From Morchella semilibera (lineage: Eukaryota > Ascomycota > Pezizomycetes > Pezizales > Morchellaceae), in contig WBVU01000003.1 of assembly GCA_009192285.1 (NCBI GenBank), forward strand, positions 5,425,973 to 5,489,972: a stretch of DNA of 64,000 nucleotides. The letters are read 5' to 3'. The position numbers and the translations under genes are program-made. Numbering within the stretch: position 1 is the first letter of the stretch; each line of letters begins with the position of its first letter. Positions 27,401 to 64,000 of this stretch are shown piece after piece. The notes beneath the pieces were generated by a model, which saw only the letters and a program-made list of their open reading frames with translations, searched no databases and had not been told where the DNA came from.

Positions 27401-28003
27401 ATTGAAGGCAGGATCTTTGAGAATAGAATATCTACACCGCGCGCTTTCTGAGATGAGCCTCTTTAGAAAAGCGTATAAGGCCTAGATAGAGTGTATGAGC
27501 TCATCCTCAATTGTCCTAGAAAGAAGCTGTGGGCATATACTGGGTCGGGCGCGCGACTCGAGAAACAATGGTGAGAAGAATGTTCCTATTCAATCCGGTG
27601 AGTGCCTAATTGACCCCCGATAGGTGAACTGGCGTCTGTGTTTATCTATCTATTTCTGCGCCCCATTGTCTTAGACTGCTGGCGTCTATAGGATAGATAA
27701 ATTAATGCCTATAGAAGGGTGACACATCCGGTCTCTATGGTTCATATTTCCATAAATCTGTTCTCTATTCGTACCTACATCGATAGACTGCTCTATTAGC
27801 TCCATTTCTACAACCGTCAACCCCCACCTATAGAATTCATCTCAGCCCGCTCAGCTTTCTGCTGCTGCATCCTACTTATCTCTGCTCCCTCCCCCGGTGG
27901 GACCTCGAGATCACCTCCTCCCCACCTTCTCCACCTCACTTCTCTGGCTAGAATTCCTATACCCATCACCTAGTATCTCCCTCTTTACCACATATACAAC
28001 AAG

Positions 28004-28963
28004 ATGCAGCTCCTCCCGCTTCTCGGCCTCGGCCTGTCAATTCTCATTACTCCCGTCACTGCTCACTCCTGGGTTGAGTGCGTTTCTACAACAGTTTCCA
28101 ACCTTGAGGCTGCCCGCTCTAGTCCCGGCAACCCCCTCCCTGATAATATTTGCAATGGCTACCCCAGAAACAAAGCCTTTGACGGTAATTGGATAGACGA
28201 ATCCACCTACTACTCCTGGAACCTCAATCACCCAGAAAAGAATGCCAATGGCCTCGCCTGTAACCCCACACAAACCAATCAATATCCACCCGGGAAGGCC
28301 ATGACTACCGCTAAGCCCGGCCAAACGCTCCTGATGCGGCATTGGGGCAACGGACACGCCAATTATGCGTATGGCCTTCCCCCTAACAAAGACCCTGGTC
28401 TTGTTCGTGTTTATTGGAAGGGTGCGAAAGAGATGGAGATCACCTCCAAGAGCGAACTGACGAGCGCCAACTGGATGCCCGGGGCGCAGGCCAATTTCTC
28501 AGCGAACTCCATCTGGAGAAGGCTACCGGACGGGCGGCCCGACGATATCGCAAACTATTTCTCAATCACGTTACCGCAGGACATGGAGAATGGACGGCAT
28601 ATGCTGGTATGGGCGTGGGCTGGCGAGCGGGGGTTTCTGAACAATGGTCCTGGGTGGAAGGCTGGGGATTATGACAACGAATGGGTGAATACATACTCGA
28701 CATGTTTCGACATCATGATTGAGGGGTCCTCGTTTAATGGCCCTTCGGCGGGAGCTGGTAACGGTGGTGACGATGGTGGTGCGTCAGAGATGTGCAATAA
28801 TACACCGTGTAGGAGGGGGGGTATGGCTTCTGCGGTGTGCACCGGGGCGTCATGCCCGCCGTGTAGGTATCGCAAGCCGGACGGTGTTGATTGCTATGAG
28901 TATAATGGCGGGAAGTGTCCGTTTGGAAGTGCGTTTGACTGCAAACTGAACAAGCAGGTGTAG
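28004..28963 (+). CDS. Secreted His-brace (LPMO-like) protein with Cys-rich tail
   Basis: An intronless gene of 319 residues. Residues 1-20 form a clear signal peptide (MQLLPLLGLGLSILITPVTA). Cleavage after TA leaves His21 as the first mature residue in HSWVEC. A mature N-terminal His together with a later His in RHWGNGHANYAYG (His118, or His113) is the pattern of a copper histidine brace, as in lytic polysaccharide monooxygenases and related fungal copper proteins. Positions 26, 50 and 86 carry cysteines, probably disulphide-linked. The core ends around residue 245. A Gly/Ser/Asp linker follows, then a tail of about 55 residues with eight cysteines (CNNTPC, VCTGASCPPC, DCYEYNGGKC, DC), likely a small disulphide-rich module. 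I cannot assign an AA family; substrate and activity are inference. The protein acts outside the cell. A CT-rich leader precedes the ATG, which is the first in frame and the only one that gives the signal peptide. Confidence 0.75.
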   Translation: MQLLPLLGLGLSILITPVTAHSWVECVSTTVSNLEAARSSPGNPLPDNICNGYPRNKAFDGNWIDESTYYSWNLNHPEKNANGLACNPTQTNQYPPGKAMTTAKPGQTLLMRHWGNGHANYAYGLPPNKDPGLVRVYWKGAKEMEITSKSELTSANWMPGAQANFSANSIWRRLPDGRPDDIANYFSITLPQDMENGRHMLVWAWAGERGFLNNGPGWKAGDYDNEWVNTYSTCFDIMIEGSSFNGPSAGAGNGGDDGGASEMCNNTPCRRGGMASAVCTGASCPPCRYRKPDGVDCYEYNGGKCPFGSAFDCKLNKQV

Positions 28964-36528: not shown

Positions 36529-38657
36529 ATGTATTTCACCACCGCAACCCTCCTTCTCCCATTCCTTCTGCTCGTACAAGTTGCAACATGTACTCAACCG
36601 GAAAGTGAGAGCATGGTGTCCAACCGCCTTAGCCCCGTATCACTAAATAGACTGGTAAATAAAAACCGTTTCCGACCACCAACTAAGAAGCGTGCTACCT
36701 CGGCGCTGAGGGGGCCGCTGTATATCGAGTTGCCGCTGGACCACACGAATTCGAGTAGCGAGACGTTCTTGAATCGGTATTGGGTGGATGAGACGTTTTA
36801 TAAGCCTGGAGGACCGGTTTTTCTGTAAGTAGTTCGGGGGTGGAGTTACTATGAATAGGACTGACGATATATCGGTGGATGGATATGCACAGTTATCGAT
36901 AATGGTGAAGCCACCGCGGAAGGTATGGAGTACTACCTCGCTTCTGGGGCATCCGGATCCCTCGCAGAACGATTCAATGGGTATATATATCCCTACTTAT
37001 ATCAACGTTTCCGGGCTGTAGAACTCACAACTATGCAGTCTTCTGATCCTCTGGGAGCATCGCTTCTACGGCACCTCACTCCCCGCCATGCCTGCTAACT
37101 TCCGCTTTACCCCCTCCCAACTCTACAACTACTTCAGTTACCACAAGGTTGAGCAAGCGCTGGAAGACGTCGCTGTCTTTGCGCGCAACTTCAACAGCAG
37201 CTTCCACCCTTCCACAACGCCGTGGGTTTTTGTCGGGGGCTCTTACCCTGGTGCACGTGCTGCATGGTCCCGCCTTCGGAATCCTGAGATTTTCCATGTG
37301 TCATTAGCATCCTCGGCGGTGGTGCAACTCCAGGAGAACTTTTGGCAGTATTTCCTGCCGGTGGAGAAATTGTTGGACGAACAAGGATGGAGGAACTGCT
37401 CCAGCGATATAAGGAGCTTTAATGCGTGGTTAAATGATGCTTTTGACAACGAGGATGCGACGAGGATTGATAACTGGCTGAATATTGTAACGGGACCGGA
37501 CGATAGTTCAGCGCTTTATAGATATTTCCATTGGGATGATAGTGGAGATGTGTGGGTAGATCGGAGTACAAACGTAAGAGCGGCTATAGGAACGATTTAT
37601 CAAGACTTCCAGGTAAATATGGCATCAGAGCTGTTGTTGCTTTTGTGAGCAGGGAATATGGATCATGGACGCTAACGATGGTTTCTTCTGCGGTATCGCG
37701 TAGTATGTCGGAATGGGCGGCTATCTCGGTTACTTCTGCGATTCCCTCCAACAAGAAGCAGCAGGCTCTCTCAGCAACCTCAACAGCAACTCTGCTGGCG
37801 TTTTTCAAGATTATGAGCTCGATAGCGCCCTTGACATCTATGCAACTGTGATCAGGGATATCTGGACATATCTTCTTACCCCCGAACAAATACCCCCTGC
37901 TGGCCTTACCATAGATAATATCGTTTTGGGTCTCGATTGTTCCGCGGTCGATAGGTCCTGGTGTGAGGAGAGCCTGAACGCCTTTTCATGGCAGTGGCAG
38001 GTGTGCTCCGAGATTGGCGCATTCCAGGTTGGAAATGCTTCACGCCCCGAGACGCTCCTACCCAAAATCGAGTCGATGGACTCATGGATCCAAGACTGTG
38101 TGAGTTACTTTGGCAACGGTTTGAGTAATGGTCCAAATATAGCACCGATAAATGATAGATACGGTGGATGGGACATGCAACCAAGCAATATAATGTGGAA
38201 CGACGGCGAGAATGACCCGTGGCGAGGTGTCACTCCGCATTCGACCACTGAAGAGGCCCCAAAACGCCCGTCTACGACCGATATACCAGCGAATGGAACG
38301 ACCCCGCCTGGTAACGAAGTATTTGGGTATGTCGTACCAGGTGGGTTTCATTGCCCGGATCTCGGTGACGTGAGAGTGGTGAGGGACACAACCAGGCCGC
38401 CGAGTGGGCCAATATCTGGGGCCAATATTGCACATACAGTCTTTATAAATGCACTTGCACAATGGCTTCCGCAATTCGTGGAGCATGATGTTCCGGATGT
38501 GTCTAAAGTGCCGCCGGGATTAGCGGGGGGAGGCGCGTCTAGTGCAGGTAGTGGGGGTTCTGAGGATGATGGTTCGTCAGATTCTGGCGCGGGGAGAAGG
38601 GTGATACCGGTGATCGGAGCTGTGATAGCGGTAACGATGGCGTTGTACATGATATAG
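36529..38657 (+). CDS. Serine peptidase family S28, likely GPI-anchored (one-base phase break)
   Basis: Exons about 36529-36824, 36893-36980, 37039-37612 and 37704-38657, giving about 636 residues. Introns have donors GTAAGT, GTATAT and GTAAAT; the last has a GCTAAC branch. An N-terminal signal (TATLLLPFLLLVQVATC) leads into the S28 start GPLYIELPLDHTN. The catalytic Ser lies in VGGSYPGA (about residue 196), the Asp in NDGENDPW (about 490) and the His in GGFHCPDL (about 535). This is the full triad of the prolyl carboxypeptidase/dipeptidyl-peptidase group, which cleaves after proline. The C-terminus is a Ser/Gly/Asp-rich stretch followed by a hydrophobic tail (VIPVIGAVIAVTMALYMI), typical of a GPI signal, so the enzyme is probably on the cell surface. 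Odd: splicing GT-AG at intron 1 leaves one extra base (TT instead of T before ATCGATAATGG), causing an immediate stop; all later exons are in phase. Confidence 0.8.
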
Positions 38658-49046: not shown

Positions 49047-51190
49047 ACAGCGCACATTACCATCATCCATTAGGTGCTGCATAATTCCTTATCTCCTACT
49101 TACGTTCCCCCCCCTCTTTCATTATTTTCTGGGTCTGGGTTCGGTTTTGGTCTGGTTTGGGTGGGGGAGCATATTATCCGGGGGCTCACTTCTTTTTTCT
49201 GTTTCCTATTCCTTTTTTGCGGTTCTGTCTGTTACTACTATCTGTCTATCTATCCATGGAGGGGGGCATATCATTTATCATTGGAGGAGCGTTGATTTTG
49301 ACTTTTGGGATCTTGGCGTTGTTCTTTTCTCCTTTCATTTTATCCTTTTTCTAGTTTTATTTCCTTTTTCTTTCTTTTTTCCTTTTTTTACTTGAGGAAA
49401 AGGAACAATTTTTTTCTCGAGAGCCAGCTGTCTGGTGGGATTGGCCACTGGAGCAATCAGTCGGTCGTATGTATCATCCACATACATCCATATATGCAGG
49501 GTGGGGTCGACGACGCTGTCTGCCTATTTCTACTCTACCGCCGGCCGCGGGATCTATCTGTCTATCTATCTATCCAGCTGTAAATAATATCTCCAGATTG
49601 ATTTGAATCGTTGACTTCTCTGATCTCCTTTGTTTTTTTCCCCCCCGTTTTTGTTTTTTCTGCCGCGGTGGGGGAGGGAGAGGTGAGGTGAGGTAATATA
49701 GCATAATCTATGAACTATGTACCAATTTCGATATCCAACCCAACCAGACCAAGAAAACGGGACATACCCCCCCCTCCCCACTCTTCCAATCACGGCAGGG
49801 AGCGTACTCCGCCGCCATTGGAGGGGGGGAGGGGAGGGGGGGGGGGGCAAAAAGGAAAGAAGGCGGAAAGAAGGCAGAGCGTCGTGGCAGATGGAAAGTG
49901 CTGGAAGAAGGCTTGGCACATGGCGAGTGATGGGTTGTGACTAGTGGCGCGGTTTGGTTTGGTTTGTGGCGGGTGACGGATGGTCTTGCTTGTCGGGCGG
50001 GGGGCGGGGGCGGGCTGCGCCGCGGGGTGGCTGACGGAGATGGATGATGCATGGTGCACCACGGCGGGGGGCGTGGACTAGTAGTTCTATCATTGACGTG
50101 AGAGGGTATTGTACTGGGTGCTCTGTGGTTGGTGGGGGGTGTAATGGATCTTTAGGGCGGGTACTGGGAACTCTGGGAATGCTTTATGGGGTTAGTTAGT
50201 CTCTCCCGGCTATCTCTATTGGCTGTGTATAGCTAGCTACTCATCAAAAGTGTTCGTGGTCCGGATTTAATGGCATGTCCGGCTCAAGTAAATCAGTTAT
50301 CAAGCTGTGCATTGGGGTGTTTGGGGTCTCAAGCCACCAGTATTTAATGGTGGCTGAAATCGGCATTAAATGCTCATGGTGTTTTTATTCCCTGTTATCA
50401 AGTTTCTATAGGTACATTTGAGTCTTTTGATTCAACTCTGTAAACCACATAGATCTAGAGTGGTGGCCATCTTATATATGAATCACGGACACCTTTGAAG
50501 AGTGGCTGTATCTTTCGCATTAGCGTGCCACATCTAGGGAGTGGTTGTCCAAAATGGGGCAGCAACACACGAGTCTTGTAGCACATTCTAGTACCCCAAG
50601 GGCTATGTCCTGGGACTGTTGTCATAGATGTACATATACTTGCAGTAGGGTTTTCAATATGAATAGAGAGGAATCCATACCGGAGGTCTTTGGGGTAGTG
50701 TACAGACAACATGTATCTCAGGGCATTGATGTCAAGACAGAAAACATGCACATATATGGGGGGGGGGGGAGATACCGGGGGCGTACTCCGAGTCCTGTAA
50801 TTAACAGGGAAATAGCCACAGTATCACGCTTGCCCGTAGCTTCACATAAATAGCATTTTGGGCACTTAGCCCTGTAAAGTTGGAAACAAACGAGGGTCAA
50901 ACTGGTGATGGCAAAGCTTGGTTTCGTACCCATCCCCTCTACGGACAATCGACTATTCATACCGTTGTTGGCGGGGGCGATCTCAGCCCGACGACACCGT
51001 CACCTATTGCGAGACGGTAGGCTTATAGCCCACAAAGGCAGTCTGTCCTTTATTTTGTGGCCAGGAACGTGAGAAAACCGGGTGAAAAAATCTGTACGGT
51101 AGGCTATGATTGATGTCTCTGAGTAGATCCTCGCCTTTTTGAATATCTATAGAAATATGAAACATCATTTGATCTATATCTTAAAGTAAA
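49047..51190. other. Gene-free stretch
   Basis: No supported gene. T-rich sequence (49080-49420) follows the preceding gene. There are G-rich runs near 49823-49846 and 50758-50770 and TCTA repeats at about 49556-49574. A MITE copy occupies 50242-50512. The open frames seen here are low-complexity readings of CT- or GA-rich DNA. Confidence 0.5.
50242..50512 (-). mobile_element. MITE, family R3, copy 2 (inverted)
   Basis: Left end ACTCATCAAAAGTGTTCGTG and right end CACGGACACCTTTGAAGAGTGGC are inverted repeats. The interior read in reverse contains TGATAACAGGGAATAAAAAC and ACCATGAGCAT, matching copies at 14457 and 54662. This copy is longer by about 60 bp than copy 1. Confidence 0.75.
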
Positions 51191-53093: not shown

Positions 53094-54041
53094 CTATAAC
53101 ATCGAGCTCATCAGCCAAAGTCTCAATATCTCCTGCTCCAAAAACTCGGCTACCTCCAAACAGTCTCCCCTACGTGCCACCGAAACCAAAGGTAAAAGCC
53201 TTTGTTCATACCAAAAACTATCAATCCCAGGCATTTGCTTCGAAAAACACCTCTCAACCACATCCACTCTTCCCCTTAGACACGCCAGTAATAGAGGGTC
53301 GAACCCCCGGTTGTTTGCGCTTATATAATCACACCCCTCTTGCTCCAACAGGAAATCCACCACATCCATCTTGTTGCAATAGAGCGCAAGAATCAATGGT
53401 GTATCATTGTCTACATCCACCACGTCCACCTCGGCCCCATACTCCACCAAAACCTGCACACAATCCAGATGCCCATACTCCACGGCGAGTGTTAAACAAC
53501 TACTCATGTGCTCATTTCTAATATTAGGGTCTGCACCCGCCGCCAAAAGCACACGCAACATTTCCACCCTCCCATTTCGACAAAGATCGAACGTCAATGG
53601 CTCCCTCCACCTCCACAGTTGGTCCGGCGATGCGCCACGGGACAGGAACAGACTCACTACCGGAATTTGATTTGCCCAGACTGCAATACCAAGTGGAGTC
53701 CTTTCATTGTCGCGTTGTGCGTATGGGACACCGTGGTCGAGGAGGAACTGCACAGCCTCGAGACTTCCGTTGCAGCAAGCTTGGTTGAGGGATTCGTTTT
53801 CCGTAGTTTCGTCTGATGAGGGTGTGTGGGCGACAATAGTTTTCAAGAGTGGAACGTGGTTCTTAGCGGCAGCCCAGATCAGGGCGGGGATCTTGTCCTT
53901 GTCGGCGAGGGCATGGTGTAGCATGAGGTATGAGAGGTTGTAATGGCATGCACGGCATGTCAGGAGAAGACTTAGAAGATCGCCGGGACCGAGGTTTTCG
54001 GCGATGATGGAGAGTATCTCGTTTGGGACTTTGAGAAGCAT
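53094..54041 (-). CDS. F-box protein with ankyrin repeats
   Basis: A single-exon frame of 315 residues. Residues 1-40 (LLKVPNEILSIIAENLGPGD then LLSLLLTCRACHYNL) form an F-box. Ankyrin repeats follow from about residue 50 to 295, about seven by eye, with signatures such as ESLNQACCNGSLEAVQFLLD, TPLGIAVWANQIPVVSLFLS, LRVLLAAGADPNI, SCLTLAVEYGHLDCVQVLVE and DTPLILALYCNKMDVVDFLL. F-box/ankyrin proteins would bring ankyrin-bound clients to an SCF ubiquitin ligase; in fungi the clients are mostly unknown. The ATG at 54041 puts the F-box right at the N-terminus, as is usual. Its neighbour on the same strand is another F-box gene, and the next gene rightwards also carries ankyrin repeats, but here the repeats are old and diverged, unlike those at 60-62 kb. 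Confidence 0.85.
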   Translation of the reverse strand: MLLKVPNEILSIIAENLGPGDLLSLLLTCRACHYNLSYLMLHHALADKDKIPALIWAAAKNHVPLLKTIVAHTPSSDETTENESLNQACCNGSLEAVQFLLDHGVPYAQRDNERTPLGIAVWANQIPVVSLFLSRGASPDQLWRWREPLTFDLCRNGRVEMLRVLLAAGADPNIRNEHMSSCLTLAVEYGHLDCVQVLVEYGAEVDVVDVDNDTPLILALYCNKMDVVDFLLEQEGCDYISANNRGFDPLLLACLRGRVDVVERCFSKQMPGIDSFWYEQRLLPLVSVARRGDCLEVAEFLEQEILRLWLMSSML

Positions 54042-54435
54042 GGTTACGAAACTGAGAAACAGCGTTGGAAGATGTTTTGTAGATGTTGTAGATGTGGCCC
54101 TACAGTAGATATAAGAGGATCTTGTGACTCAGCAGTTAATCTGGTAAGGATCCCCCGGCGCTTAATTTTCTGGGAAGGGTGGGGGGGGGCGGTGCACGTG
54201 GTTGATCGATAGATCGAGGCAGTTACTTGAGGTAGGCGATGGTTATATTGTATATGAGATATGAGGGTCAATCTAGATAAAATAAAACTCAGAGTCGCTG
54301 CTGGGAAATAGTTTCTTTTATAAAGTAGAATAGAATATTGGTGCAGTAATTGGGCAAGAGAGGTGTTTTGAAACATACTCTACAGCCGGTGAGCTACGGT
54401 AGGTGTAAGAAGTACTACGGGTGTGAGATTCATCT

Positions 54436-54992: not shown

Positions 54993-55714
54993 CCCACCCC
55001 ACCTTACAGACAACAGTGGGTTAGTGACCTTGTCGCTTAGGGACCGTGCAGAGGCCGTTATCTACTAGTCAAGTTTTTATCGGTTGCTACAGCCATTACC
55101 TACCCGCAAGTAGAGGTATTCCCCCACTTCCATACATCGAATACCAGTTAACCCCTTCACACTAACCCTAACCCTAAACATTACACGGTAAAGTCATTTA
55201 TACTATGTACTACATATCTATTAAAACTCTGTTTTAAAATTCCCTCTCGACTCCCAAACGAGGCCTAAAGAAACCCAGATAGGTCTTACAGCACTGTACC
55301 TACATGTTTTGAAAGGCCAATATGGGGTGTTGACAGGTACGTTCACTCACTAAATGCAGAGAGCCCTGTACAACCAAACTTATTTGCCGCCCTCGGATCA
55401 AGGCGTTTGGCTTGCATAGGACTATGTAATGCTGATTGATCCCTTATTAGTAGAAGAATTAGGTTTGCTGTAAGCATATCTTGCTAGATCCCAGCTTTAG
55501 AGTAATAGTAGCCAGAGTTAGAACGATTTGATAAATTTCAATCCAGCAAAAGGTCGGTTGGAGAGCTGAGATCGAGCCAGAACAACTTTGATTGGCCAAA
55601 AAATACCTTGGCTCTGGCTCTGGCTGTGGCTCTGGCCCAGTCTGACTACATTAGTCCATAGTCTTTGATCCTTCCCCGCAATCTACAACGGACACAAGAT
55701 CACCCGGACTGAAA

Positions 55715-58700
55715 ATGCCAACCGACATCTGCTTCCGCGTAAGGCAGATACCAATACACCTAACCCTTCAAAGCCTAGCCCAGGCTATTGAGGAGTGGTT
55801 CTCTAAATACGAGGGCGTTAGCGTGCGCGTGGATGAAAGGCGGACAACCCTCGTTCAGTGTTGTTATAACCCAAAGACCGCGAAAACATGCATTCTTCAT
55901 TTCGACTCGGAGCCTCCACGAGCACTCGAAAGTTTGGGGACTAATATGACGTACGATCTCGAGATCTCACCCGATTACGAAATTCTGATTGATAGGGACT
56001 TCTACGGACTTACGCAACTGTACACACCGAGTACTACGGACATTAAGCTTGAGTACATATCTTCGCCACTGCAGGGATAATTTCCTGAAATTCCAAGAGA
56101 CTGATGGTGAAGTTAGCATCATCGCGCTATCTGGCCTTAATGGACACGCCTATGGTTCATGGGCGAGCAAGCCTAATAATCGGGGTATAAAGAAGATGTG
56201 GCTGCGTCATTTCTTCCAAGAGGATAGATCGGACTGTAGGACAATGATATATGGCTACAATTCGAGGCTAAACGAACCGGGTATTCATACGCTTTCCGAC
56301 TATAGCGGAACGCTTCTAGAGGAGGTGGATAAAGTTCGGAAAGGATATGAGGTTTGTGCCATCCTTTGACCATAGTTCTAGGGTGATTAGTGCTGGTAGC
56401 AATGAGGAAGAGAGTTTGAAAAAATTGGCTGACCTTGGCCCGATGATAAGGACCGGCCTGTAGCACTTATAGGCCATAGCTTCGGGGGAATTATTATAGC
56501 AGATGTGAGTTCCCCGCGGCTATTGGGACTGGAATCCCTCAGCCGTTCTTGACTACCACTATGGGATGGGTCTATATATATGTATCGAGAGGCGCGATAT
56601 TGTGATTAAGCGATATATATCCTTTTGGTAAACTAGGGGATATGCCACTCTCGAGACCCTATCATATCTTATTGTGGCCACATGTACACCTTCATTGATA
56701 GAAACTAACTTTTGCGAGAAGGCAATTGTGAAAGACAAGGAAACTCCACGACGTAGGGGGTGCCTCTTCAGGATGACGAAGGCGATCGTTTTTTTCGCGA
56801 CGCCACATAGAGGAATTCTTTTTGACGATATACGTGAGATGGTTGGGGATGGATCACCACGTTTGGATCTGGTGCACTCGATAGGAAGAGGTCAGGAGGC
56901 AGAGGATCTCCTATTGTTTACACGATATGTTGAGGAAGAACACTTCCGGGTTATGAGCTTTAGGGAAACAATGCAAACAAAGCAGTTGAAACGGGTACGT
57001 TTTCACCCTAGACGATGTGTGAGGTATATTGGCACTAATGTTAGTCTGTGCGGTTAGGATCCTGTTACAAAAACATGGACTAGGAGTGGCCCCTACTATA
57101 CAGTTTTAGAGAGGGAATCTTCCATCCTGAATCTTCCCTGTGATTACGAGGAGGTTTTATGCGCCGAAGGGGACCACTCGACTCTAGTAAAATTTAATAA
57201 TAAGCTAGAAAACACTTATACTACTATTCTTGGACGCTTTAGTATCTTGCTAGATCACATTGGTATATCACGGACCAATCAGTCTCATCTGAGCCCTTGA
57301 TCACAATTGCCTCTTCATTAAAATGCTGACTGAACTATATTAGTTCAAGCTAGTAGCGGAGATCATGCGGAGATCAGCTCGCGCCTACGAATTGCTGTTT
57401 TGAATAAGGAATATTCGCTCGTATCAGTCCTGCTAACCCTTGGGAAAGCTGACCCAACCCTCCTAGCAAAATCTACAAAGGATGCCCGTATGCTCAGACT
57501 GTTGTCTCTATATGGTGCCAAGAACGACCTTGAGAAGGTTTGCCCCGGATGCTCTGTAATGGAAATAGAAATGGGTCGTTGCGAGCCTAGACAGAACGGA
57601 ATGGAGCATGGGCAGATCTACGATGCCCCAGATGTCGATCGCGGAAAAATTTTGGCCTGGCTTTCAAGACTTGAACCTGAAAAGGACCACGAACGGATAC
57701 GGAAAAAGAGACATAGGCACACAGGACAGTGGTTTCTTGAATCAACTAAAGTGCAGGGATGGCGGGAAGAAGACAAAATGTCGCTGCTGTGGTGTTACGG
57801 TAACCGTAAGTAACCTCTAATTATATTATTCGGCGGGACTAACAAGATCCTAGCTGGCGTAGGGAAATCGGTCCTAACGTTAGTCGATCCTCCCCCCCGC
57901 CCCCCCCCCCCCGGGGCCGATCTCTCCCCCTCTCTGGAACTATTGTAACAATGAAGTAGATCTACGCTTCTGGAGGATATTACGACGCAGTACGAAAACG
58001 AAAAGGCCGTAGGAATAGCCTATTTCTACTTTAGTTACCAGGCTATAGCTAGCCAGGAACCAGAGGATATATTAAGTATATGGATCAAGCAGCTGTGCCG
58101 TCGACAAGATGGGCTTCCGAGTTCTCTGCGTACTCTCTACAAAGACTCCATCGATAATGACCTTAAACCAAAGCTTTCCGAGCTCGAAGGCTTAGCTCAA
58201 GAAGTGATCAATACATTCCAGAAGGTTTTCGTGGTTATCGACGCTCTAGACGAATGCAGCAAGCAACATCGGAATGCGCTCGTTAATTACCTAGTACGAC
58301 TTTCAGACGACCATAGTCACTGCGTATTGAAGTTTTTCATTGCTAGTCGACGGGAAGTAGATATCGAACGTATTCTCTTGTCGGCTAGTTTTTCAACCTT
58401 TCCTGTGGAAGTAACAAAGGTCGACGAGGATATCGCAGCATACATCATCCACGAGCTGAAACATCGGGAACAGGATTTATTCGAGCTTGATGAAGCCTTG
58501 AAGGAAGCCATCCAGACTAAGTTGACCCAGTCAGATGGAATGTAAGTGCTGCGGATCAAAACAAGGTCTTAAATATTTACTTACATTGCAGGTTCTTATG
58601 GGTAAAATGCCAGCTTGACTATATTTACGAGCAAGCATCAAAAAAGGATATAATGGACGCCTTGAGTTCACTTCCTGATACTGTTGCTGGTACCTACGAA

Positions 58701-61700
58701 CGGATGTTCAAACGAATAAGTAGCCAGGCCAAGTCAATGAAGGCTCTCGCCCACCGTGCGTTGTGCTGGTTAATTACTTCGAAAAGAGCATTATCAATGA
58801 AAGAACTGGCGGTAGCTGTCGCCATCGAGTCTACAACTGATTGGGCCGGGGTGGTTAATCATGAGAATATGTATTCAGAAAAGACTATCCTGAATTCTTG
58901 TTGCGGATTCATTATTAATGAGTGCGGGACAGTGAGACCAATTCATTTTACTGTGCAAGAGTTTCTAAAAGAGAAAACTTTGGAAATACACGAGGGTGTC
59001 ACCGGGAATATCTTTGTTACAACGAGTTTACTCAAATCTCTGCTGATTACTGATTTTAAATGTCAATTTATAAAGTCTCCTAGGGGCCGATTTGGACAAG
59101 GACCGAGATCAAGGTTACATCTCAATGCGACGGGCCTTCATAATCTTTTAGAATACTCATGCACATTTCTCAACCAGCACTTAAATGATCTTCATCCATT
59201 ATCTGAAAGCGTGCTCCGCCTTGTTAAAGGACTGCTAGAAGAGGGGAGAGGGATCCTTCGGTGGGTAATGCTTGAGGTATTCAGGTCTCAAGGGAAGACG
59301 AGCGCTAGAGAAGTGTTGACCGAAATGGAATCGAGAGTGAATTTCCAGCGGTCTACATACCACAGCGTTACGCCCCGGCCCGGGGGTTCCAGAGACGGGT
59401 CTACCGCTGCAGGCCCCTACTCGGCGCCCTATTATAGGATACCGTCTGGTGGGGGTCAGGTCCGCTACGTACATCAAAAGGGCCCGCTCGACTCCGACGA
59501 TGGCCGCAACATGCAGAACCCGACCGAGAGACAACTCAACCCGAGAGTTACCCCATTGATTTTACTATCTAGTCTTAATTTGTTATCTCTATATTTCCAC
59601 CTCTACTCGAAGCCAGTCGATGTGATACAGCTGAATGAGGTCTTACACCAAGTCGTACGCAATGGGTCTGTGTCGGCAGTTAAGGAACTACTCAATCGTG
59701 GGTGTGATATTGAGTTCCCGGACGCTAAAAAGAACTCTCCGCTACTCACTGCGGTAATGAGTGGATGTGAGGAGGTAGCCATGTTTCTGATTGCTGAGGG
59801 AGCGAATGTACACCAATCCGATAAATCAGCGGGCATGTCTGCCTTATATCACGCCTATAAAAATGGTATGGTCGACACGGCCAAGGCCATTATTAATAGC
59901 GGCACAAATGCAAATGTACGTAAATAAAGGATGTATATTCCTTTGAACACATCTCATCTGACCAGCACTTACATGAAAGTGTTTGCTAATATCCATCGGT
60001 TCAACATCTATAAGTCTCTGGAGGCAGTGCGTAGGAATTACGGTATCGCTCTCTTGGGAGCGGTTAAGCAGAAAGAGCTAGTGACGGTCAGGGCCCTCAT
60101 AGAAGCTGGTGCCGATGTGAATATTGTAGATGAAAGAGAACGTAGGGCCGCTCTTTCGCCAGCAGCTGAGCAGAAGGATATATACTGACGTTTAACACCC
60201 TCATAGTAACCACTCTCTCCCTAGCAGTTGAGCAGGGGGACATAGCGATGGTCAAAACCCTCATAAAAGCCGGGGCCGATGTCAACGTCCGGGGTAGATA
60301 CTACGGTACCGTTCTGGCGGAAGCGATTTATAGGCGGAGTCCCCGAGAGATCGTCCAAGCACTCAAGAAAGCCGGGGCCATTACCAAGGTTCAGATTGGT
60401 CCGTACGACATAAATGTCCAGGAAAGAACCTTCAGAGGATGTGTAGAGGCTATCAGAGTACTCCTGGAGGCCGGGGCCCAGGTCATTAACCGGAGCGATA
60501 AAAATGGTGCCGTTCTGCAGGCAGCGATTGGTAATGACCGCTCTCTAGAGGGCATCCAAATGCTCGTGGAGTCTAGGGCCCATGTTAAGATCCGGGGTGA
60601 GAATTACGGTATCGCTCTCTTTGAAGCACTTAGGTGGGATTCCCCATTGGTCATTAAAGTCATCATAGAAGCCGGGGCCGATGTCAATATCCAGTGTGTT
60701 AACGATCGTACTGCTCTGCATGTAGCGATTGCGCTGAACTGCTCCATTGGGACCGTCAAAGTACTCCTGCACGGCGGGGCTGGTCCTAATCTCCGCAGTA
60801 GAAAGTGTGGCACTGCATTGCAAGCAGCGGTTGGGCTAGGCCGCCCTATAGAGATCATTAAACTACTCCTGAAGAGTGGTGCAAATGTCAATATTCAGGG
60901 GGGTATTTATGGTACCGCTCTGCACGCAGCGATTGTGACGGGTCGCTCCATAGAGATTATAAAAACACTTCTAGAAGCCGGAGCCAATGTCAATATCCAG
61001 AGCGGTTATTATGGTACCGCTCTCTTTGAGGCGGTTAAGCGGAACTCTACAGCGATTGTCAAAGCCATCATAGAGGCCGGGGCCGATGTCAATATCGAGT
61101 ATTGCAAGTATGGTACAGCTCTGCAAGAAGCGATTATTGGGGGCCACTCCACAGAGATCATTAGGACACTCCTAGATGCCGGGGCCGATGCGAATATCCA
61201 GGGGAGTAAGAATGGCACCGCTCTACACATAGCGATTGTGCTTGGCCGCCCCATGGAGATCATCAAAGTACTCTTGGAAGCCAGAGCCGATGTCAATATC
61301 CAGAGCGGTTATTATGGTACCGCTCTCTTTGAGGCGGTTAAGCGGAACTCTACAGCGATTGTCAAAGCCATCATAGAAGCCGGAGCCGATGTCAATATCG
61401 GGTATTGCAAGTATGGTACAGCTCTGCAAAAAGCGATTATTGGGGGCCACTCCATAGAGATCATTAGGACACTCCTGGATGCCGGGGCCGATGCGAATAT
61501 CCAGGGGGGTAAGAATGGCACCGTTCTACAAACAGCGATTGTGCTAGGCCGCCCCATGGAGATCATCAAAGCACTCTTGGAAGCCGGAGCCGATGTCAAG
61601 ATCCAGGGAGGTTTTTATGGTACTGCTCTACACGCAGCGATCGCGCAGGGTCGCTCCATAGAGGATGTCAAAGCACTCTTGGAGGCCGGAGCCGACGTCA

Positions 61701-62131
61701 ATACCCAGGGTAATTCGTATTTTGGTACCGCTCTTCAGCTTGCGGCCTCCAACGGTGCGGTAGAGATCGTCAAAGTTCTCATTGAAGCTGGGGCCAATGT
61801 CAATATAAAAGGTGGCCGGCATGGAACCGCTCTCCGGGCAGCAGTCCTGTGTGGCGCAACACAGGTTGTCAAAGCACTCTTAAAGGCTGGGGCCCATGAC
61901 AATATCCAGGACGGCTTCTTTTATGGTACAGCCCTCCAGCTTGCGACCTCGAACGGCGCGGTAGAGACCGTCAAGGTTTTCATTGAATCTGGGGCCAATG
62001 TCAATATAAAAAGTATGTGTGGTACCGCTCTGCAGGTGGCTCATGCGGGTTATCAACCGGGGGGGAAAGAGATTATCAGAATTCTCCTGGAAGCCGGTGC
62101 AATTGATGTTGATTGTAATGAATCGCATTAG
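55715..62131 (+). CDS. NLR-like receptor: alpha/beta hydrolase, NACHT NTPase, ankyrin repeats
   Basis: Hand-spliced into 11 exons: 55715-56019, 56075-56351, 56451-56504, 56719-56994, 57058-57262, 57344-57805, 57854-57878, 57960-58541, 58592-59919, 60028-60141 and 60225-62131. Phases agree throughout, giving about 1,844 residues. Residues 1-100 are an N-terminal domain typical of this class. Residues 110-372 are an alpha/beta hydrolase (IIALSGLNGHAYGSW; nucleophile Ser in ALIGHSFGG, about 204; FFATPHRG; His in AEGDHSTL, about 344). Residues 515-730 are a NACHT domain with Walker A GNPGVGKS (525-532) and Walker B VFVVIDALDEC (624-634). After a helical region (AHRALCWLITSKRALSMKEL) and a disordered linker come about 20 ankyrin repeats (1080 to the end). 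Such STAND proteins act in the cytosol: ligand binding to the repeats triggers NTP-driven assembly and the N-terminal effector fires, usually in non-self recognition or programmed cell death. Ligand and effector activity here are unknown. The exon 10-11 join is the least certain. Confidence 0.8.
57879..57959 (+). other. NLR intron with long poly-C tract
   Basis: An 81-nt intron, donor GTTAGT, acceptor AAGTAG, directly after the microexon that encodes the Walker A motif. It holds about 20 C interrupted by one G and followed by GGGG. Splicing it out joins GKSVLT to STLLEDITTQYENEKAVGI, the expected continuation of the NACHT domain. If retained, the C tract shifts frame and stops follow, which would abolish the protein. 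Confidence 0.7.
61001..61606 (+). repeat. 303-bp tandem duplication of three ankyrin repeats
   Basis: 61001-61303 and 61304-61606 are two copies of one 303-bp unit (101 codons, three ankyrin repeats). I count about 14 differences, so about 95% identity. The unit starts AGCGGTTATTATGGTACCGC in both copies. About ten of the differences change an amino acid and four are silent. The surrounding repeats are clearly related but much more diverged. Confidence 0.85.
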
Positions 62132-64000
62132 AGAAAGCGTTGAAGGATGAGCTAAGGCTAAGGGTAATTTTGGGGCGGGGCAGATACGAACGTACCTTTT
62201 GGTGCACGTATCCTGTACCTGTATGTAGAAACGGGAGTGTGTTTTGTGTCCTTTGTGCATGTGTTTTCTTTTTTCTTTCTTTTCCTTCTTTTTTTCCCTT
62301 TGGGGGGATCCGGGAAGGGGCGTATGGCCATATATATAGGTCGATCTGAAGCCCGGTGATATACTTGGAGTAGGCATAGATATTGCATGAGTGAAGAGAG
62401 CCTGGGGCATTCTATAGTAAGATTGATCGTTAGATCTTATTTCTCATCCTCGCCTAGCTATTAAATACATGTATATATATGCCTCCCCCCTCCCCCTCTT
62501 CTGGCCATTATCATCACCCTCCCCATCATTATCATCATCACCATATATATGCATCACAACTGCCCACCATAACCATCAATAGTACCAAGGAGGCTAATCT
62601 ATCGTAAGTATTAGTTATCCCCCACGTACTACATGTAACAACGGTAGTAGATAGCAGCAGCAACGGTAGTGGTAGGAGCGGTAATGGTGGAGAAGATTAA
62701 TTATAGATCTAGACCCAATCATACTAGACACACCTATTCAATTCAACACGACAGCATCCTTTAAGTACGACAAAGATATCCTTGAACTAGATCTGCCGGA
62801 GGTTCCGGGGGATGCATGCAGCTATAGTTCTGTCTGAATCTAGATACCGAGATGCATATGGCTGGATTTAGAGATATTACAGCCGAATTATATTGGAGGG
62901 TAATCTACCTATGCAGGTGGTAATAATTAATTATAACAGCTTCAGGGTCCATGAGAGACTAGTTGAGAGTAGAATACGATACTTTAAACCAGTGCTGTAC
63001 TTCGGATAATTATAAGAGGCGCCAAGGGCATTCAACCCCCTGCAATATGGGAGATATTTCTTGGGTCCTGATATAGGGCTGAGATTAAGGTGGCCCGTAA
63101 GGCGCCAAGCCATATATTCGCGAGTCAAGACATGAGGTATCACTCGAGTTTGACAACTGGGCTGTGGAACTTTTTTTTTTGTATGCACTTTATAGCTATG
63201 AAAATATGCTGAGGTGGGATTAAAACTTCTAAATGAGAAAAGCCGTGCTCGAATGTCTACAAGAAGCGCCTAGGCGGTTAAGGTAGTGTACCAGACCCTG
63301 TAACGTAACCCGACGTACCCAAAAATCCTTAATTTTCGACTCAAAGGACAGCTCATTATTAATCGTACGGTTACCAGGGGAGTTGGTCATATTTCGCGGG
63401 GTTGCCCAGAGTCGATCGAGGAATTTGTACTGCTCCGGGTGTTGTTGCTTCAACGTCAAGTTATTCGGAGCGTGGACAATTGTATATCACTCCGTCAATT
63501 CTCGAAGTCATTTCAATACAGATAGTATTGAAATATATTCTACTTTAGAGCACGGGATTAATGATACTAACACAGTTCCGGGAGGGCCCTAGGTCACTAG
63601 TATGAGTATATATATCTGAAGGAGAGGGAGAAAGAGGGAAGGAGATAATGGAGGATTAGGAGACGATGGAGAAAGAACTAAGAAACTTAATGTCTTATTC
63701 CCATCGGATTTTGTGGCTGTATAGAAGGACGATGATTCTTATGACCCGTATGTATCTATCAAGAAATGGAGAGAGGTTTTTTTCTAGAGATGTCAACAAG
63801 CTAGCCGTCAAGGACCTACATAGATATTATACGAGTCGCGAATATCCCCTGTATCGTTTCTTGGCTCCCTCGGCCATGGATATCACACAATATAAGGATT
63901 TTCTGGATAGACAGTATGAAATGTGACTATTTGATCATGATCTAATACTGATAAAGCAGTGTATATGGTTAAACTGCATTTCTGCGAATAATATATATAG
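62132..64000. other. Gene-free right end
   Basis: No supported gene. T-rich and CCTC-rich DNA follows the NLR-like gene, with a CAT/ATC run near 62515-62545. Open frames include one of 86 codons at 63666-63926 (plus), rich in Arg and Tyr, with no recognised domain and no upstream exon that I can join to it. It could be the exon of a gene running off the window, but nothing proves it. Confidence 0.5.

Follow-up and report, generated by a model that had tools for sequence, protein, structure and literature searches.

A candidate SesB-like/NACHT/ANK receptor gene of Morchella semilibera and the putative introns of its ankyrin array

Among the nucleotide-binding oligomerisation domain (NOD)-like receptors (NLRs) of fungi, Metarhizium anisopliae gi 322704939, tabulated as SESB-LIKE/NACHT/ANK by Dyrka et al. 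2014 (PMC4986451, Table 2), shows the same order of modules as the gene studied here, i.e., a hydrolase effector, a NACHT domain and ankyrin repeats. Podospora anserina Pa_6_7270 (sesB-like/NACHT/TPR(HEAT), Table 4 of PMC4986451) shares the lipase/esterase-like head and the NACHT domain, but its C-terminal repeats are of another type than ankyrin. According to PMC4986451, SesB-like domains are predicted to be lipases, with a lipase domain that human SERAC1 shares, and class-1 N-terminal domains are believed to be direct effectors. In PMC9815663, SesB-like domains are tied by indirect evidence to regulated cell death, and basidiomycetes are described as almost devoid of SesB-like NLRs; for Sordariales, PMC12258605 reports that T-NACHT is often paired with a SesB-like domain on the one hand and with ankyrin repeats on the other. 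Neurospora crassa PLP-1 is an analogue in the way it works, with a lipid hydrolase head, an ATPase and repeats, and its cell death is reported to require both patatin activity and the nucleotide-binding motif (PMC12881547); it is not a member of the class, its modules being patatin, NB-ARC and TPR instead of hydrolase, NACHT and ANK. The gene in question lies in a 64-kb stretch of Morchella semilibera DNA (G000:C19:5425973-5489972, hereafter the window), which belongs to a genome of 56.76 Mb in 23 contigs, with the short introns, retrotransposons and gene content expected of a fungus. Compared with the M. anisopliae protein by architecture and not by sequence, it differs by its array of ~23 ankyrin units (our own count) and by two putative introns within this array.

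Gene model and class assignment

Left unspliced, the locus shows the broken frames noted in a preliminary description of the window, since an open reading frame (ORF) scan of 55600-62200 found no forward frame open throughout. Once ten GT-AG introns of 48-217 nt are removed from 55715-62131 (Table 1), the remaining 5,541 nt form a single ORF of 1,846 amino acids with a terminal stop only, which agrees with the one continuous protein proposed earlier (about 1,844 residues), and the four motifs named with that proposal (GHSFGG, GDHSTL, GNPGVGKS and VVIDALDEC) are all found in the joined protein. The acceptor of intron 3 (56721) was picked by a paralog, the alternative (56718) adding one lysine, while the excision of intron 6, which interrupts the P-loop, yields GNPGVGKS. 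A branch-like motif (RCTRAY) occurs within the last 50 nt of eight of the ten introns (the exceptions being introns 7 and 8), to be compared with seven occurrences in the entire coding sequence. A stretch at ~59350-59560 had been suspected of being a non-coding insert for want of a Pfam match; its frame is open and both its ends align to the paralog on contig C7 (see below), and we kept it as a presumed variable linker of the coding sequence. Judged from the sequence, the gene is apparently intact and probably functional, a status that depends on the two putative junctions of introns 9 and 10.

Table 1. Predicted exons and introns of the gene, with other features of the window and of related loci (window positions unless a locus is named)
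Feature	Positions	Strand	Remarks
Exon 1	55715-56052	+	N-terminal extension ahead of hydrolase (MPTDICFRVRQIP...); open frame, aligned to C7 and C19 paralogs
Predicted intron 1	56053-56116	+	phase 2
Exon 2	56117-56351	+	hydrolase, first part (DIIALSGLNGHAYGSW)
Predicted intron 2	56352-56450	+	phase 0
Exon 3	56451-56504	+	nucleophile elbow GHSFGG at 56472-56489
Predicted intron 3	56505-56721	+	phase 0
Exon 4	56722-56994	+	hydrolase core (FFATPHRG ... SFRET); C7 alignments, both directions
Predicted intron 4	56995-57057	+	phase 0
Exon 5	57058-57262	+	hydrolase end, GDHSTL at 57169-57186; C7 alignments, both directions
Predicted intron 5	57263-57343	+	phase 1
Exon 6	57344-57805	+	linker, NACHT start up to GN of P-loop; C7 alignments and Pfam
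Predicted intron 6	57806-57853	+	phase 1
Exon 7	57854-57878	+	P-loop PGVGKSVL; flanking introns 6 and 7 conserved in C7 and second C19 copy
Predicted intron 7	57879-57959	+	phase 2
Exon 8	57960-58541	+	NACHT, Walker B VVIDALDEC at 58231-58257; NPHP3_N match
Predicted intron 8	58542-58591	+	phase 2
Exon 9	58592-59919	+	helical/winged-helix region (GPIID_WHD, under cut-off), variable linker, first ankyrin units; Pfam and C7 alignment
Putative intron 9	59920-60027	+	GTAAAT...GGCAG, phase 1; ankyrin register restored
Exon 10	60028-60141	+	ankyrin units
Putative intron 10	60142-60206	+	GTAGGG...ACTGAC...CATAG, phase 1; diverged copy of next ankyrin half-unit
Exon 11	60207-62131	+	ankyrin array to stop codon, 18 complete units and 303-bp tandem block
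303-bp tandem copies	60974-61276 / 61277-61579		three units each
Interstitial CCCTAACCCTAA	55166-55177		short; ~540 bp ahead of start codon
Match to ~277-bp repeat	54802-54945		matches opposite strand of the repeat copies
Small ankyrin protein	53094-54128	-	close upstream of the NLR; one copy only by DNA search; F-box match weak (under cut-off)
~277-bp repeat	~50235-50511		dozens of genome copies, ~71-83% identical
Serine carboxypeptidase S28	37022-38657		two open frames split by probable intron; single copy by DNA
DUF7492 match	27974-28963		hydrophobic N-terminus, secreted-looking protein
Ankyrin-repeat coding stretch	L044 4086-4702		C19, ~4 kb downstream of the NLR; two frames
Ty3/Gypsy-type retrotransposon	L042 6783-9557 and L043 784-2133	-	between exons 2 and 3 of second C19 copy; gag; reverse transcriptase, RNase H, integrase, chromodomain

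The Pfam search that had been suggested as a check places the joined protein above the cut-offs of the DUF676 esterase (narrowly, 21.5 bits for a cut-off of 20.3), NPHP3_N (124.9 bits; cut-off 24.8) and the ankyrin repeats (Ank_2, 412.9 bits over 13 stretches; cut-off 27.3). DUF676 reaches 25.3 bits on the window hydrolase alone and 17.8 bits, below the cut-off, in the model with one extra lysine. Moreover, the profiles PGAP1, Abhydrolase_6, Abhydrolase_1, DUF676 and Hydrolase_4 each match the hydrolases of three relatives in three out of three cases (E <= 0.05), and we take GHSFGG and GDHSTL to be the sites of the nucleophile serine and of the catalytic histidine, respectively. The protein features a central nucleoside triphosphatase (NTPase) with Walker A and Walker B motifs followed by C-terminal ankyrin repeats, i.e., the layout of a fungal NLR (signal transduction ATPases with numerous domains, STAND), and its alpha/beta hydrolase or DUF676-type domain is located N-terminal to the NTPase, as in SesB-like proteins. 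Bacterial defence models produced marginal matches only against residues 1-880 (best E 0.0038). Based on the order of the modules and the Pfam matches, we consider it quite probable that the gene encodes a fungal NLR of the SesB-like/NACHT/ANK class.

Paralogs, gene family and selection

Relatives of the gene on C7 and elsewhere on C19 (the second C19 copy) were found by a DNA search of its own genome, the former being a close paralog that carries all three modules. A purpose-written splice-aware protein-to-DNA alignment was run in both directions. Queried with the window protein (which carried one extra lysine at the intron 3 acceptor, for which the match of intron 3 allows), C7 showed introns 1-8 at unchanged residues and phases; queried with the C7 protein, the window showed the same eight introns. 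On these alignments, the recurrence of eight introns in C7 is more than chance. The first run further proposed two introns without counterpart and found the frame of C7 exon 1 broken once, and the second run proposed eight introns without counterpart, all downstream of the winged-helix region, past which the C7 protein is a poor template. One of these C7-guided junctions leads from 59920 to 60206, i.e., from the donor of intron 9 to the acceptor of intron 10, and skips exon 10; because both introns are in phase 1, the frame is kept, and this joint could represent either the true splice or an additional isoform.

Parts of the same intron set are found in other relatives. Intron 1 occupies the same position in C7, in the second C19 copy and in a hydrolase locus of contig C1 (L055), as do introns 2 and 3 in C7 and L055. 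Altogether, L055 has introns 1-4 in common with the window gene and keeps GHSFGG and GDHSTM, and neither a NACHT nor an ankyrin part was detected within the 8.3 kb examined. The second C19 copy was aligned as two separate pieces. In it, introns 1 and 4-8 agree in position and phase, intron 3 is accompanied by an ambiguous extra exon of one residue, intron 2 is represented by its donor side only, and exon 8 contains one unusual additional gap. This copy is itself broken, its nucleophile serine and its histidine being lost (GHRFGG, GDYSS), and a retrotransposon lies within it (Table 1).

At the scale of the genome, NPHP3_N matches 125 exon-level stretches (150 of 206 candidates scored, identical twin contigs included), and a separate match ends at profile position 30 in eight other loci (hand count), which is consistent with the same split of the P-loop. 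The hydrolase query returned 107 stretches, corresponding to 37 loci by hand count, window locus included, after collapsing C12/C13 and C21/C22. Of six locus pairs compared between these contigs (3.1-3.6 kb), five are 100% identical and the sixth is 99.97% identical; they are contigs duplicated in the assembly, and family counts are therefore inflated. A DNA search of the same genome revealed no near-identical second copy (allele), either for the gene or for two flanking stretches.

Relative to C7, the ratio of nonsynonymous to synonymous substitution rates (dN/dS) amounts to 0.19 for the N-terminus, 0.11 for the hydrolase, 0.37 for the linker, 0.15 for both the NACHT and the winged-helix region, 0.26 for the first ankyrin units and 0.23 for the remainder of the array (where the repeat alignment is uncertain), these ratios being rough because residues 955-1060 (the variable linker) are saturated at synonymous sites and dS elsewhere ranges from 1.06 to 3.03. 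For this computation, a proposed C7 intron (7100-7053) was taken as coding. Such low values point to a coding frame under purifying selection across the two lineages together.

The roughness of the ratios is one of several points that weigh against a working receptor of this class. Pairwise dN/dS covers both lineages together; it neither separates them nor dates a possible end of this selection. NACHT itself (PF05729) scores 26.1 bits in the final model for a cut-off of 26.7 (27.0 in a partial model), Abhydrolase_6 and GPIID_WHD stay under their cut-offs on the joined protein, and sequence matches in the PDB were no better than E 0.065 and 0.015. The window hydrolase keeps both GHSFGG and GDHSTL; no catalytic acid was recognised in it. 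Finally, in a comparison restricted to the window and C7 (the second C19 copy yielded one unit and was left out), unit identity is 45% within the window array (120 pairs) versus 46% between window and C7 (112 pairs), and 69% within the C7 array (21 pairs); since window units are no closer to each other than to those of C7, array-wide homogenisation is apparent only in C7.

The ankyrin array and its putative introns

In the last exon, units are 33-35 residues long, and the frame is open from 60170 to 62131 (653 codons). Unit variation, counted over 16 of the 18 complete units (two were dropped by the cutting pattern), peaks at columns 22, 23, 29, 12 and 11 of the alignment. The two copies of the 303-bp tandem block are identical at 289 of 303 positions (95%) and give a dN/dS of 0.80 from 14 differences. 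This duplicate would be in line with the repeats of fungal NLRs, which are described as highly alike and variable in length (PMC4986451).

Introns 9 and 10 have no counterpart in C7 or in the second C19 copy, whose ankyrin arrays are open and intronless; thus, both breaks are peculiar to the window gene among the three, and the support for the two introns is indirect. The excision of each restores the ankyrin register. At break 9, 4 of 22 GT-AG pairs leave the frame open and two of the 22 give the exact register; 59920-60027 was chosen because it combines this register with a CAG acceptor (the other open pairs being 59916-60014, 59916-60023 and 59920-59979). At break 10, the corresponding figures are 8 of 28 pairs and a single one, register odds that are modest when taken alone. 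Splicing that touches the repeat part has a likeness in the NACHT-ANK genes of Tuber melanosporum, whose micro-exons have the size of a codon (Iotti et al. 2012, cited by PMC4986451 and PMC9815663); in the window gene, two introns are proposed within the array.

The 65 nt of intron 10 align with the next ankyrin half-unit at a score reached by none of 2,000 single-base shuffles, and by none of 500 when compared with the array of the last exon. Intron 9 bears no resemblance to the array (223 of 500 shuffles reach its score), and the scores of introns 1-8 are reached by 185, 194, 147, 15, 81, 148, 4 and 170 of 200 shuffles, respectively, intron 7 (4 of 200) being a C-rich tract. These data bear on whether the locus is a recent pseudogene or truncated receptor, in which break 10 would be a frameshifted ankyrin repeat and translation would stop near 60185, after about five units. 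The ankyrin origin of the 65 nt fits such a lesion, as do the open, intronless arrays of both paralogs, the weak donor GTAGGG and the broken state of the second C19 copy. Yet intron 10 contains a perfect ACTGAC 17 nt ahead of its TAG, in contrast to the last exon (1,925 nt), which is free of RCTRAC and shows a suitably spaced one in none of its 568 GT-AG pairs; its excision moreover produces the exact unit length, as noted for one pair in 28, and the 653-codon frame downstream has stayed open. RIP (repeat-induced point mutation) indices argue in the same direction: the gene (0.87 and 1.15) differs little from the window (0.95 and 1.10), and a RIP pseudogene is not favoured; the ankyrin array has 0.76 and 1.38. 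On balance, a truncated receptor appears doubtful.

From its sequence, intron 10 is less likely to be a simple lesion than an intron that arose when a half-repeat was duplicated. Tandem genomic duplication has been described as a source of new introns (PMC4974935, PMC2891723), and the likeness resides in the removal by splicing of coding sequence that had been duplicated, the splicing of intron 10 being a prediction here. As a tentative proposal, for which we would not claim even chances, intron 10 would have arisen by tandem duplication of a half-repeat, the first copy gaining ACTGAC as its branch point and being spliced out with the register of the sensor preserved, and partial or regulated splicing of this intron would toggle the sensor between a complete and a shortened form. 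If so, the unspliced form would comprise the hydrolase, the NACHT domain and about five ankyrin units only.

Genomic surroundings and predicted role

Telomere-like repeats are present at both ends of C7 and at the left end of C19, the right end of the available C19 sequence lacking them. The C7 paralog lies ~48-53 kb from one telomere-like end, while the window gene and the second copy lie ~81 kb and ~13-25 kb, respectively, from the right end of C19; a subtelomeric cluster is likely and, on the C19 side, putative. The telomere-like contig ends (L047, L048, L053, L054) are mainly made of a 10-bp unit, TTAGTTAGGG (CCCTAACTAA), and not of plain TTAGGG; a literature search on this unit had fungal telomeres in no title among the matches listed. 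Among the neighbouring features (Table 1), the ~277-bp repeat and the stretch matching its opposite strand may correspond to an inverted repeat resembling a miniature inverted-repeat transposable element (MITE).

For the SesB-like/NACHT/ANK reading, the most likely mechanism would run as follows. The C-terminal ankyrin solenoid would sense a ligand, most probably a protein that is foreign or modified, which would free the NACHT ATPase for ATP binding and oligomerisation. The N-terminal alpha/beta hydrolases gathered in the oligomer would then cut or remodel membrane lipids, with regulated cell death, or a nonself response of another kind, as the outcome. For the window gene, we infer from its class that a ligand is sensed, that the protein oligomerises, that the substrate is a lipid and that cells die. 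A functional protein of the NLR class could also employ its hydrolase during development or symbiosis, where it would serve signalling or the metabolism of lipids rather than nonself recognition or cell death; the lack of a known ligand leaves room for such a role, but the indirect tie of SesB-like domains to regulated cell death, as given in PMC9815663, speaks against it, and we regard it as unlikely. The preliminary description had also raised a new, undescribed incompatibility or defence system, for which the missing ligand could again be invoked, and this is very improbable, given that SESB-LIKE/NACHT/ANK already figures in the published table of fungal NLRs for M. anisopliae (PMC4986451), that the component modules are reported as common (PMC9815663, PMC12258605) and that the same genome holds the three-module C7 paralog and dozens of related loci. 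Of that earlier proposal, the NLR-like layout of hydrolase, NACHT and ankyrin stands on the Pfam matches and the motifs, but its novelty does not.

In conclusion, a locus resembling a wreck is probably a working receptor gene, and the paralogs within one genome can test its exons. This receptor would be one more of an already described class, while its intron 10, if spliced, would represent a clean and recent birth of an intron from an exon inside an immune-type sensor array.
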